Positions 21,545 through 25,406 of a DNA stretch of 31,214 nt are shown here, one piece after another (position 1 is the first letter of the stretch; each line of letters opens with the position of its first letter). The notes beneath the pieces were generated by a model. It was not told where the DNA came from, did not search any database, and saw only the letters and a list, made by a program, of their open reading frames with translations. A program made the translations under genes and the position numbers. Source of the stretch: a virus; the IMG/VR virus record IMGVR_UViG_3300020417_000123, positions 1 through 31,214 of that record; one strand, given 5' to 3'.

Positions 21545-21862
21545 ATGAAGCAATCAAAGGTCTTAACAGCATTGGGTTTAACGTCACAGGATATACAAAA
21601 TATGTTGATGAACGGACTAACAATGCCAGAGATAGCAAAGAAGTATAAAATAGAATACATTTCTTTAGTGCAAGCTTACAAGATACAAAAGAAAAATTAC
21701 AAGTATGTTGATTTTATACAACCTAAAGAAGAAGTGAAGGATATAAAAAACGTATCCTTCACATTCGATAAACTATATACAGAAGAATCACTTAACGAAG
21801 AAGAATTATTAGCATATTATAAATACGAACAAAAAAATAAAGCATATTATGAAATATATTGA
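21545..21862 (+). CDS. 105-aa protein with helix-turn-helix-like N-terminus
   Basis: Residues about 10-50 (LTSQDIQNMLMNGLTMPEIA, then KKYKIEYISLVQAYK) read as a helix-turn-helix of the kind that follows 'G.t..eIA..y.is'. The C-terminal half is charged (EESLNEEELLAYYKYEQKNK). It starts five bases after the SSB-like gene and overlaps the ABC-GNAT gene by 14. It could be a transcription regulator or a replication accessory protein. Confidence 0.62.
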   Translation: MKQSKVLTALGLTSQDIQNMLMNGLTMPEIAKKYKIEYISLVQAYKIQKKNYKYVDFIQPKEEVKDIKNVSFTFDKLYTEESLNEEELLAYYKYEQKNKAYYEIY

Positions 21863-23003
21863 AAAGAAAAATAAAATAATTAATGATAAATATACTGAAT
21901 ATATATATAATTCTTTTGATATACAAAACAAAGAAGAAACTACAGTTAAGATTCCTATAAATTTTTCAGAATGTAAATCATTTGATTGGAACATAGGCGT
22001 GATTTATGGCGGTTCTGGAACTGGTAAAACAACTTTATTAAAAGAATTTGGTAATTTAAGTAAATGTATATTTGATGAAGAAAAACCAGTTATAAGCAAT
22101 TTTGATTGGTTAGAACCAAACAAAGCTACATTATTATTAAGTTCTATGGGGTTAAGCTCTGTACCAACTTGGTTAAGACCTTTTCAAACTCTTTCAAATG
22201 GTGAACAATATAGAGCAGAATTAGCTTATAAAGTAGGCAAAGCTAAAGAAAACGAAACTATATTAATTGATGAATATACATCTGTTGTTGATAGAGATGT
22301 TGCTAAAGCAATGAGTAATGCTTTACAAAAATATATAAGAAGAAACAATAAAAAAATAATATTAGCAAGTTGTCATTTTGACATAATGGAATGGTTGTTA
22401 CCAGATTGGACTTATTCACCACTAAAAGGGAGGGTTGAGAAGCCCTCCTTACTTCGGCAATCAAGACCAAAAATTGAATTACAGATATTTCGATGTAGAT
22501 ATGAAACTTGGAATATATTCAAACAACATCATTATATAAGTGAAGATTTAAATAAAGCTGCTAAATGTTTTTGTGTTACTTGGAATGATAAACCAGTAGC
22601 ATTTTATGCTTTTTTGCCTATGCCAAGCGGCACGGTACAAAATGCTTTTAGAGGCAGTAGAAGTGTAGTTTTGCCAGATTATCAAGGGTTAGGAATAGGT
22701 TTTTCTGTTGCTAAATATTTGCATAAATTATATACAAAAGACGGTAAAAAATTATATGTAAAGAGTGTTAATCCGGCTTTAGTTAAAAAAAGAATGAATG
22801 ACGATGATTATAAATTTAATGGAAAAACTAAAAGTTCTAATGAAGGTGGCAAATTAAAAGGCAGAAAATTAAGAGATTCTGCTGCATATTCTTTTTTATT
22901 TACAGGAAAAGTAGATGATATTAAAGAAAATGAATTAAATATATTAAAATTTAATGCTGATGCTTGGAAAAATGTATCACAAAATCAAACAAGATTATTT
23001 TAA
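21849..23003 (+). CDS. ABC-type ATPase fused to GNAT acetyltransferase
   Basis: A 384-aa fusion. Residues 1-205 are an ABC ATPase: Walker A GGSGTGKT (54-61), signature LSNGEQ (about 115), Walker B ETILIDEYTS (about 137-146) and a switch-like SCHFD (about 173). It has no membrane domain. Residues about 210-335 are a GNAT domain: FRCRYETWNIFKQHHYISED, then VAFYAFLPMPSG and acetyl-CoA loop VVLPDYQGLGIG (about 273-284). The same fusion occurs in other phages and prophages without known function. The last residues are NQTRLF, like a sliding-clamp-binding peptide. A GC-rich inverted repeat marks the domain junction. DNA or protein acylation powered or gated by ATP is possible. Confidence 0.82.
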   Translation: MKYIEKKNKIINDKYTEYIYNSFDIQNKEETTVKIPINFSECKSFDWNIGVIYGGSGTGKTTLLKEFGNLSKCIFDEEKPVISNFDWLEPNKATLLLSSMGLSSVPTWLRPFQTLSNGEQYRAELAYKVGKAKENETILIDEYTSVVDRDVAKAMSNALQKYIRRNNKKIILASCHFDIMEWLLPDWTYSPLKGRVEKPSLLRQSRPKIELQIFRCRYETWNIFKQHHYISEDLNKAAKCFCVTWNDKPVAFYAFLPMPSGTVQNAFRGSRSVVLPDYQGLGIGFSVAKYLHKLYTKDGKKLYVKSVNPALVKKRMNDDDYKFNGKTKSSNEGGKLKGRKLRDSAAYSFLFTGKVDDIKENELNILKFNADAWKNVSQNQTRLF

Positions 23004-23021
23004 ACAATTAAACTATAAATT

Positions 23022-23498
23022 ATGAAATCAATAAAATACAATGAAAAATATCACAACAATAAATTAAATTTTTTACTTAGTTATAAATCTGATAAATTAA
23101 GAACTATTATGGATGTTGATACACTAATAACTAAATTTAATTCTAAATACGCTTTTATAATAGACCATAAAAATAAAAATGATAAATGTTCTTTAAATCT
23201 TTACAAACAACTATCTAATTTATGTAATATAAAATTAAATGATAATGCTATTGTTAAGTGTTTTATAGTACAAAGCGAAATAGAAATTAAAAATAATAAT
23301 TCTACTGCTGAAACAATAAATGGTATTACTTACATTCAAGAAATAAAGTATAATAAGTTTGGTAAAGAACCAAAAGATTTTATTAAAAATGAATATAATA
23401 TTACAAATGATGATATTTTAGTTAATTTTTTTAAACCTGAATTACACGAAGAAACAATAAAAAATATATCTATATATGAACAATTAACTTGTTTTTAA
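23022..23498 (+). CDS. 158-aa protein, possible PD-(D/E)XK nuclease variant
   Basis: No close family is recognised. Residues about 28-50 read TIMDVDTLITKFNSKYAFII, then DHKNKND, and LYKQLSNLC about ten residues later. A D-x-D strand, a strand ending in D-x-K, and a following helix with Q is the order of a PD-(D/E)XK core with Asp in place of the usual Glu. The stretch VKCFIVQSEIE would be the next strand. The protein ends in QLTCF, close to clamp-binding peptides. It has an AACTATAAATTATG start context. The family assignment is tentative. Confidence 0.7.
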   Translation: MKSIKYNEKYHNNKLNFLLSYKSDKLRTIMDVDTLITKFNSKYAFIIDHKNKNDKCSLNLYKQLSNLCNIKLNDNAIVKCFIVQSEIEIKNNNSTAETINGITYIQEIKYNKFGKEPKDFIKNEYNITNDDILVNFFKPELHEETIKNISIYEQLTCF

Positions 23499-23509
23499 AC
23501 TATATAATT

Positions 23510-23917
23510 ATGAAAGAATTACCATACTTTAAATTTTATCCTAATCAATGGATTACTGGCAGTATATCATTTATGGATTTAGATGTACAAGGAGCATTTA
23601 TGAAAGTTTGCTGCTACTACTGGAGCAAAGAATGTAACGTAACAAGAAAACAAATTAAAACATTAATACCAAAACAATGGAGCGTATTAGTTGATGCTGA
23701 GTTATTTAAGATAGATAATGAAACTATTAGCATTAAATGGTTAGATGAACAATACCAACAAAGGTTAGTAGAACACAAGCGAAACGTAAGCAACGGAAAG
23801 AAGGGGGGCTTAAGCAGGGCTAAAGCATTAAGAAAAGATAAGATAAAAAAAGATAAATATGCAAATGATAATTTATTAAAAGTAAATGATGAAGTGCAAA
23901 AACTTCTTGACCAATGA
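23510..23917 (+). CDS. DUF1376-like replication initiation protein
   Basis: A 135-aa protein using the ATG at 23510, since an upstream TTG would overlap the previous gene and add MFLNYII. The N-terminus (LPYFKFYPNQWITGSISFMD; QGAFMKVCCYYWSKE) matches the DUF1376/replisome-organiser N-terminal domain, a winged-helix fold that binds origin DNA in phage initiators. The segment VSNGKKGGLSRAKALRKDK is the usual basic linker after it. The C-terminal domain is short. It is coupled to the helicase gene (ATGA), consistent with loading it. Confidence 0.75.
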   Translation: MKELPYFKFYPNQWITGSISFMDLDVQGAFMKVCCYYWSKECNVTRKQIKTLIPKQWSVLVDAELFKIDNETISIKWLDEQYQQRLVEHKRNVSNGKKGGLSRAKALRKDKIKKDKYANDNLLKVNDEVQKLLDQ

Positions 23918-24768
23918 TATTAGAAGATAAAGCTACTATACCATATTTAAAAGCATTTAAAGAAGGTAAAATTAAAAAAGGTATTGGCATTGGTTGTTTA
24001 TTAGATGATTACTTTGTTTACAAGAATGGCAACTTTAATATGTTTTTAGGTTTAGATAATGTTGGTAAAACTAATTTTATCTTATGGTACTTAACTGCAC
24101 TTAGTAAATTACATGGTAAAAAGTGGTGTATCTGGAGTGGCGAAAACAATGCTGGCCAACTTAAACGTGATATTATACAAATGTGGACTGGTGAAACAAT
24201 TAAAGATTTAAACGAATATTTATTTTATCATGATGAAATTAGTAAGTATTTTAAATTTATTGATAATAGAAAATTATACAATCATAAAGAACTATTAGAA
24301 ATATTTGATAAAGAAGATTGTGATGGTGCATTAATAGACCCTTATACAGGCATTAACCATGATAGAAGAGTTTCACAATTTGAAAGAAATTATCAAGTAT
24401 GTAATGATGTTAGAGAGTTTTGTAATAGAACAGGCAAAACAGTATTTATTGCAATGCATCCACAAACAGAAGCAGCAAGGCGTGTATATCCACCAGACCA
24501 TCAATTAAATGGACATATACAACCACCAAGAAAAGCTGATTGTGAGGGTGGGCAAGTATTTCCAAATAGAGTAGATAATTTTATTTGTTTACATAGATTA
24601 ATTTCACATGATAAACTTTGGATGATGACAGAAGTTCACGTATATAAAATAAAAGATAAAGAAACAGGCGGTAAACCAACAATGTTAGGTGAACCATTAA
24701 GATTTGATTACAATAGTGGTTTAGGTTTTACAATTGGTGGTAATAACGTATTAAAACAAAAAAAATGA
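23914..24768 (+). CDS. DnaB/RecA-like replicative helicase
   Basis: A 284-aa single-domain ATPase with no primase or DnaB N-terminal domain. Walker A is GLDNVGKT (46-53), followed by KKWCIWSGENNAGQLKRDII, where Glu is the usual catalytic base. Walker B is GALIDPYTGIN (about 137-147). Later motifs are TVFIAMHPQTEAARR and KADCEGGQVFPNRVDNFICL, the latter resembling the H3/H4 region of hexameric helicases. This short DnaB-like helicase type is common in Bacteroidota phages. It lies directly after the initiator-like gene and before the methyltransferase, with four-base overlaps at both ends. Confidence 0.8.
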   Translation: MILEDKATIPYLKAFKEGKIKKGIGIGCLLDDYFVYKNGNFNMFLGLDNVGKTNFILWYLTALSKLHGKKWCIWSGENNAGQLKRDIIQMWTGETIKDLNEYLFYHDEISKYFKFIDNRKLYNHKELLEIFDKEDCDGALIDPYTGINHDRRVSQFERNYQVCNDVREFCNRTGKTVFIAMHPQTEAARRVYPPDHQLNGHIQPPRKADCEGGQVFPNRVDNFICLHRLISHDKLWMMTEVHVYKIKDKETGGKPTMLGEPLRFDYNSGLGFTIGGNNVLKQKK

Positions 24769-25406
24769 AGATACTAAACTTATATGCTTGCTTAGGCGGT
24801 AACAGATACAAATGGGATGAGGTTACAGATGTAGAAGTTACTGCTGTAGAATTAGACCCTGAATGTGCAAGATTATACCAAGAAAGGTTTCCAAATGACA
24901 AAGTAATAGTAGCAGATGCACACCAATATTTATTAGACCACTACAAAGAGTTTGATTTTATTTGGAGTAGTCCACCTTGTCCTACTCATAGCAGCTTTCA
25001 ACATTCAATGAAAAATAAAAGAAAAATGAAATATCCTGATATGAAACTGTATGAAGAAATTATATTTTTAGAAAATTTTTTTACAGGTAAATATTGCGTA
25101 GAAAATGTAATATCATACTACACACCATTAATACAACCAAAAAAAAGAAATAGACATTATTATTGGACTAACTTTAATTTGCCAAATGATTTAAATGAAA
25201 GAAAAGCTCCTACAATGACAAGAACTAAAGATGAATTAATTGAATGGATTAAATTTTATAATTACGATTTTAATAAATACAAAGGACATAAAGATAAAAG
25301 AACAATAGCAAGAAACTTGGTTGACTACGAAGCTGGTAGAACAATATTAGAAACAGCAGTAGGAATAGTTAGAAAACAAAATGTAAATCAAACAGAATTA
25401 TTTTAA
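24765..25406 (+). CDS. DNA (cytosine-5) methyltransferase
   Basis: A 213-aa compact enzyme that transfers a methyl group from SAM to C5 of cytosine. Motif I is NLYACLGGN (4-12) and the SAM-binding acidic residue lies in TAVELDPECA (about 26-35). Motif IV is FIWSSPPCPTHSSF, with the catalytic Cys in PPC (about 71). Motif VI is the VENVIS segment (about 111) and motif VIII RNRHYYW. The target-recognition region is very short, so the recognition site is probably small. No cognate restriction gene is present, so the role is likely self-protection or marking of replicated DNA. The C-terminus NQTELF resembles a clamp-binding peptide and matches the end of the ABC-GNAT protein. Confidence 0.9.
   Translation: MKILNLYACLGGNRYKWDEVTDVEVTAVELDPECARLYQERFPNDKVIVADAHQYLLDHYKEFDFIWSSPPCPTHSSFQHSMKNKRKMKYPDMKLYEEIIFLENFFTGKYCVENVISYYTPLIQPKKRNRHYYWTNFNLPNDLNERKAPTMTRTKDELIEWIKFYNYDFNKYKGHKDKRTIARNLVDYEAGRTILETAVGIVRKQNVNQTELF

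Follow-up and report, generated by a model that had tools for sequence, protein, structure and literature searches.

Two predicted DNA-modifying enzymes with similar C-termini

The window studied here is the whole of virus record IMGVR_UViG_3300020417_000123 from IMG/VR, a stretch of 31,214 bases which may still be a fragment of a phage genome. Its plus strand encodes an ABC ATPase-GNAT fusion of 384 amino acids (aa) (ABC-GNAT; 21849..23003) and a small C5 cytosine DNA methyltransferase of 213 aa (C5-MTase; 24765..25406). Both end in a peptide resembling the binding motif for the bacterial sliding clamp: ABC-GNAT ends in ...SQNQTRLF and the C5-MTase in ...NVNQTELF, confirming the NQTRLF and NQTELF ends given in a preliminary description of this DNA. 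The pentapeptides QTRLF and QTELF are encoded at 22986..23000 and 25389..25403, respectively, also on the plus strand. According to PMC12309361, the bacterial motif reads QL[S/D]LF or QxxLF and requires positions 1, 4 and 5; PolC of B. subtilis has QLSLF at its C-terminus. Both window proteins have the required residues at these three positions. In genomes of Flavobacteriia and other Bacteroidota, Y-family polymerases contain QMNLF, QINLF, QIHLF, QLDLF, QISLF and QFKLF, with one DinB from this set ending in TQLSLFGL. Only these two of the 40 predicted proteins in the window end in Q-x-x-[LIM]-F, while about 0.01 such ends are expected from the window's composition (probability of two or more about 5e-5).

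ABC-GNAT matches phrog_11143, a family of unknown function (E=2.6e-130), and the GNAT profile PF00583 (7.5e-5, above cut-off). It contains the ATPase motifs GGSGTGKTT (Walker A), LSNGEQYR (signature) and LIDEYTSVVD (Walker B). In an AlphaFold model both domains are mostly confident, with a mean predicted local distance difference test score (pLDDT) of 82, and a Foldseek search with this model returned ABC ATPases and GNATs (E~1e-7). Residues 378-384, which form the tail, have a pLDDT below 50, making it an exposed and flexible terminus in the model. The literature predicts acyl modification of DNA nucleobases for this family (PMC7824862), and ABC-GNAT is accordingly predicted to acylate a DNA base.

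The C5-MTase matches PF00145 above cut-off (E=2.5e-9; 37.4 bits, cut-off 22). It has motif I, SSPPC with the catalytic C72 (motif IV) and ENV (motif VI), of which C72 and ENV are invariant in relatives; the usual large target-recognition domain is absent. Judged by these motifs, it is a putative C5 cytosine DNA methyltransferase, and cytosine methylation is predicted.

No match to the sliding-clamp profile PF00712 was obtained in a profile search of the window, nor was a polymerase seen among its listed open reading frames (ORFs). Since the proteins of interest have relatives in Nonlabens phage P12024S and in Flavobacterium phages, the host probably belongs to the Flavobacteriia and its DnaN would replicate this phage, which has no recognised clamp of its own.

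Conservation and genomic neighbourhood of the tail

Loci of IMG/VR relatives were fetched with ABC-GNAT, MTase and the 158-aa protein encoded just downstream of ABC-GNAT (p158) as queries, one MTase search pattern (VRKQNVNQ) extending into the tail. Family sizes are thus a non-random sample, and the counts apply to the queried families and what surrounds them, not to phages in general. Among 2,051 distinct proteins in 741 families, 157 have the motif within their last 10 residues, compared to an interior background of 0.19% of 10-mers for the same pattern. Only eight of the 741 families have any member with a terminal motif, and nearly all motif-bearing ends belong to three of them. The tail is present in 63 of 64 distinct ABC-GNAT relatives (mostly QISLF), in 68 of 74 distinct C5-MTase relatives (mostly QTELF) and in 16 of about 17 true members of an N6/N4-MTase family (PF01555; QIRMF/QLTMF), whose gene adjoins ABC-GNAT or C5-MTase in several contigs. 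A repeated search using tail-free alignments and distant centres found the tail in 42/68 ABC-GNATs and 37/77 MTases. Within the clades, the tails read QISLF/QLSLF/QTRLF and QTELF/QTSIFD/QIELF, with the Q and F being invariant among motif-bearing C5-MTase ends. Codons vary synonymously within families (e.g., AGT/TCA for Ser, TTA/CTA for Leu, TTT/TTC for Phe), and the ABC-GNAT family has two unrelated extensions, FNADAWKDV-AQNQISLF and LLLPIxxMR-KNQLTLF, which both end in the motif. On the gene trees, the tail state changes at least 10 times for ABC-GNAT and at least 16 times for MTase, far less often than with shuffled labels (means of 59 and 38), which indicates clade-wise gain and loss.

A family of 58-60 aa encoded directly after ABC-GNAT (L169:7143-7322; L036:5344-5523; L013:5164-5340) ends in NQISMF or SQISMF, its counterpart in P12024S in NQISLF. 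From its sequence, this QIS[LM]F family is a candidate small clamp-binding partner. In many other relatives a protein of about 50 aa, corresponding to the C-terminal portion of a neighbour of the ParB_N type, is encoded directly upstream of ABC-GNAT (L195:3609-3905, L205:3750-3905, L245:3732-3887, L175:869-1387, L176:749-1288 and similar loci). Such a ParB-like partner or piece occurs at 45 of 73 genome loci and at 7 of 18 named-phage or probe loci. It occurs at 3 of 82 loci of the window clade, in none of the three directly upstream of ABC-GNAT. Based on this one clade, the clamp tail may replace the ParB-like partner.

Two further observations concern the ABC-GNAT gene in other relatives. 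In Porphyromonas and Pseudomonas phages (L174:2604-3077; L177:2535-3152) it is followed by a phosphoribosylglycinamide formyltransferase-like gene, which hints that the modification involves a formyl or glycyl-type group. At 13 Bacteroidota genome loci (L243-L256; e.g., L248:4441-4552 and L249:4531-4642), the ABC and GNAT halves occupy two reading frames that overlap, with GNAT in most cases at -1, and meet at a conserved stretch of 8-10 A (GAAGTAAAAAAAAAGTCC). This stretch at the domain junction looks like a site at which programmed frameshifting or slippage during transcription would give both ABC alone and ABC-GNAT.

The preliminary description counted p158 (23022..23498, plus strand) as a third protein with the shared end. 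Its C-terminus is indeed ...YEQLTCF (QLTCF at 23481-23495), but the Cys at position 4 departs from the canonical motif. The tail also drifts, from QL[TK]CF in close relatives to QQLLF, KYNTLF or none in distant ones, so that p158 is not supported as a full member of the group. No family match was obtained for p158 in profile searches. Residues D31, D33 and D48-H-K50 are invariant in 12 relatives, and the strand and helix order of its model (pLDDT 84) is compatible with a PD-(D/E)XK core. The best Foldseek matches, the restriction enzymes HincII, SfiI and DpnI, are not significant (E 0.05, template modelling score 0.25). Based on the invariant acidic and Lys residues and the model, p158 is a candidate PD-(D/E)XK-like nuclease. 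Between the tailed genes, the plus strand further encodes a primosomal/replication-like protein (23510..23917; phrog_29280, E=2.7e-21; primosomal phrog_9327, 0.011) and a RecA-fold helicase-like protein related to DNA primase/helicase (23914..24768; phrog_18375, 4.3e-23; phrog_239, 1.1e-12).

Tails in phages with their own replisome

The QxxLF end is missing from ABC-GNAT relatives whose phages bring a replisome of their own. In a group of large-phage contigs, ABC-GNAT ends in NKFFQF, NQFFSF or NKFFSF, and an FFxF ending was predicted for their DNA polymerase, PolB, before any PolB sequence was read. PolB was found in 5 of the 20 contigs searched, none of those five with a QxxLF tail. The PolB sequences read terminate in SQFFSF, EEFFSF and EKFFSFG, with FFSF in L425 and L426 and FFSFG in L429. 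In G001 (288 kb, 379 ORFs), FF[SQ]F ends occur on PolB and ABC-GNAT only, and ABC-GNAT tops the ranking by similarity to the PolB tail. The two genes can also be close together, ABC-GNAT immediately following PolB in one large-phage contig (L309:2-3673) and preceding it in L319 and L425.

Similar pairs were found in two phages with a gp43 polymerase. In the T4-like Vibrio phage VmeM32, [LIVM]LDI ends occur in 3 of 252 ORFs, namely the gp43 polymerase (VLDI), ABC-GNAT (ILDI) and a DpnIIB-like DNA methylase (VLDI), the methylase tail being an extension missing from the closest small-phage homologues. The QxxLF tails expected in relatives of this methylase from small Vibrio and Pseudoalteromonas phages were absent. 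In Aeromonas phage PX29, gp43 ends in SLTDLFGDW and the Mom homologue PX29p046 in GLTDLFGDF, by far the best match to the gp43 tail in this genome (score 38, next 23). The PX29 ABC-GNAT end, GLDFMFGI, is closer to SLDFLFG of T4 gp43 and SLDFLYE of T4 gp55 than to the gp43 of PX29 itself; gp55 is a known binder of the T4 clamp gp45. A 145-aa PX29 protein of unknown function, PX29p036 (L493:954-1391), ends in TELLSLFG, resembling the gp43 tail, and is a possible gp45 client judging from this ending. A search of the IMG/VR contigs with the clamp profile PF02916 gave no match and was uninformative.

Clamp tethering and its alternatives

We consider it likely, with a probability of roughly 0.84, that the QxxLF tails are clamp-binding motifs which tether ABC-GNAT and the C5-MTase to whichever clamp replicates the phage. 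The strongest evidence suggesting such a tether is the exchange of the tail for one like that of the phage's own polymerase. The host-clamp tether proposed in the preliminary description can thus be retained for these two enzymes, based on conservation, motif match and own-polymerase-like tails, and is doubtful for p158. The flexible C-terminal peptide would dock in the pocket of DnaN, and the enzymes would travel on clamps that stay behind on freshly synthesised DNA, modifying phage DNA during synthesis as it emerges from the replisome. Related phages that have a replisome of their own would have exchanged the peptide for one resembling the tail of the phage's DNA polymerase. The benefit would be protection of nascent phage DNA from host restriction; physical binding, timing and benefit are all what we infer from the tails. 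Since the tailed proteins are overwhelmingly DNA-modifying (ABC-GNAT, C5- and N6/N4-MTases, Mom), modification of phage DNA at the replisome is the likeliest purpose. That this represents a general phage strategy is somewhat favoured: at least four unrelated families (C5-MTase, N6/N4-MTase, ABC-GNAT and Mom) would gain a replicase-like clamp tail that changes with the replisome and couples modification to synthesis.

Several observations weigh against this reading. Prophage-borne ABC-GNATs of Bacteroidota, Proteobacteria, Firmicutes and Actinobacteria have no tail, though a host clamp must serve most of them, and 40 of 77 distant MTases have none either; in the flavobacterial Polaribacter phage P12002L, the QxxLF tails expected on the several methyltransferases and the Mom protein examined were absent. 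The ABC-GNAT end in G008 (RNFWDVE) is unlike that of its PolB (rank 14 of 32), and in G009 the match to the PolB tail is partial (SRFFG). In an unbiased ranking for VmeM32, ABC-GNAT comes third, with another protein, possibly gp32, tying for first with the methylase, and in PX29 it ranks 12th against its own gp43. The tail matches in both these phages were, moreover, found after the fact. T4 alpha-glucosyltransferase binds gp45 without a gp43-like tail, and according to a 2026 T4 study gp45 binding is not the main determinant of the share of alpha-glucosylation (PMC13216743). This enzyme was tried as a positive control for tail sharing and rejected, because it ends in FKEQFDIITK, unlike gp43, whereas gp55 resembles gp43.

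The preliminary description took homologues that keep the rest of the enzyme without the tail as evidence against a tether. Such homologues do exist, mainly outside the window clades, while within them the tail is nearly always kept. The tail is therefore an optional, lineage-specific add-on and not part of the enzyme. A rule by which it occurs whenever, and only when, a phage relies on the host clamp is too simple, as many tail-less prophage relatives presumably use that clamp.

Among other explanations, the tails might bind the host clamp in order to seize or regulate the replisome rather than to modify nascent DNA, by competing with host polymerases or by GNAT acylating replisome proteins. 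Clamp-binding inhibitors such as SocB exist (PMC9690074), GNATs often modify proteins and the substrate of ABC-GNAT is a predicted one. Nevertheless, this is unlikely, given that the remaining tailed families consist of DNA methyltransferases plus the Mom homologue of PX29, pointing to a DNA substrate, and that phages with their own replisome carry a matching tail where competing for the host clamp would be pointless. It is also quite improbable that the tail is some other C-terminal signal, such as a protease degron, a tip like that of SSB or an element that helps to pack the enzyme fold. Hydrophobic C-terminal peptides are known in such roles. However, an invariant Gln placed four positions ahead of the final Phe, combined with Leu/Ile/Met-Phe, is the clamp motif and differs from the SSB tip, which is acidic; the model shows the tail as unstructured, tail-less homologues keep the rest of the enzyme, and tails in other phages resemble polymerase tails.

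The preliminary description also offered a copied 3' end as an alternative, and the last ~25 nucleotides of both window genes are indeed nearly alike. A copied DNA segment, or a shared RNA or DNA element at the stop codon, is nonetheless very improbable and was rejected: the peptide is kept in each family despite synonymous codon changes and with the family's own preferred residues (QISLF versus QTELF), which argues for selection at the protein level. Moreover, the tails stand in different sequence contexts, the two unrelated ABC-GNAT extensions both reaching the motif.

Relation to known systems and meaning

Clamp-tethered enzymes are already known. T4 alpha-glucosyltransferase, which binds gp45 (Sommer 2004, as cited and reproduced in PMC13216743), is likewise a phage DNA-modifying enzyme associating with the clamp that replicates the phage, as would be the case in the window phage; T4 encodes its own clamp, and there is no relationship between the enzyme families. 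DNMT1-PCNA is a clamp-tethered maintenance methyltransferase (PMC9690074). Like DNMT1, the C5-MTase is predicted to act on C5 of cytosine and would be recruited to newly replicated DNA via a clamp-binding motif, but DNMT1 is a large eukaryotic enzyme with another clamp and motif, whereas here a 213-aa phage enzyme has a bacterial-type QxxLF C-terminus. Bacterial clamp-motif proteins (PolC, DinB, MutS, insertion sequence (IS) transposases) similarly carry QxxLF in a flexible segment or at the C-terminus, but the clients known for this motif act as polymerases, repair factors, regulators or transposases. Among clamp clients, the reviews consulted list no DNA methyltransferase from bacteria or phages, and no report of clamp-binding tails on such enzymes was found in the open-access literature. 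The ABC-GNAT family described by Iyer et al. (PMC7824862) has the same domain architecture, its homologue in Tenacibaculum phage pT24 being 57% identical to the window protein, but no clamp-binding tail was described and pT24 lacks one. Mom of phage Mu, a GNAT-type DNA modification protein, has the PX29p046 homologue with a gp43-like tail, while the window protein is an ABC-GNAT fusion. The replicase-like tails on DNA-modifying phage enzymes potentially reflect a general rule.

If true, this would be a simple phage solution to a long-standing problem, marking its own DNA before host restriction arrives, and the prokaryotic equivalent of DNMT1-PCNA. The tail would offer a sequence-only route to clamp clients, nominating small phage proteins of unknown function as replisome partners. 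Phage by phage, it would also predict which clamp is bound by the phage's enzymes, with short peptides being sufficient for testing.

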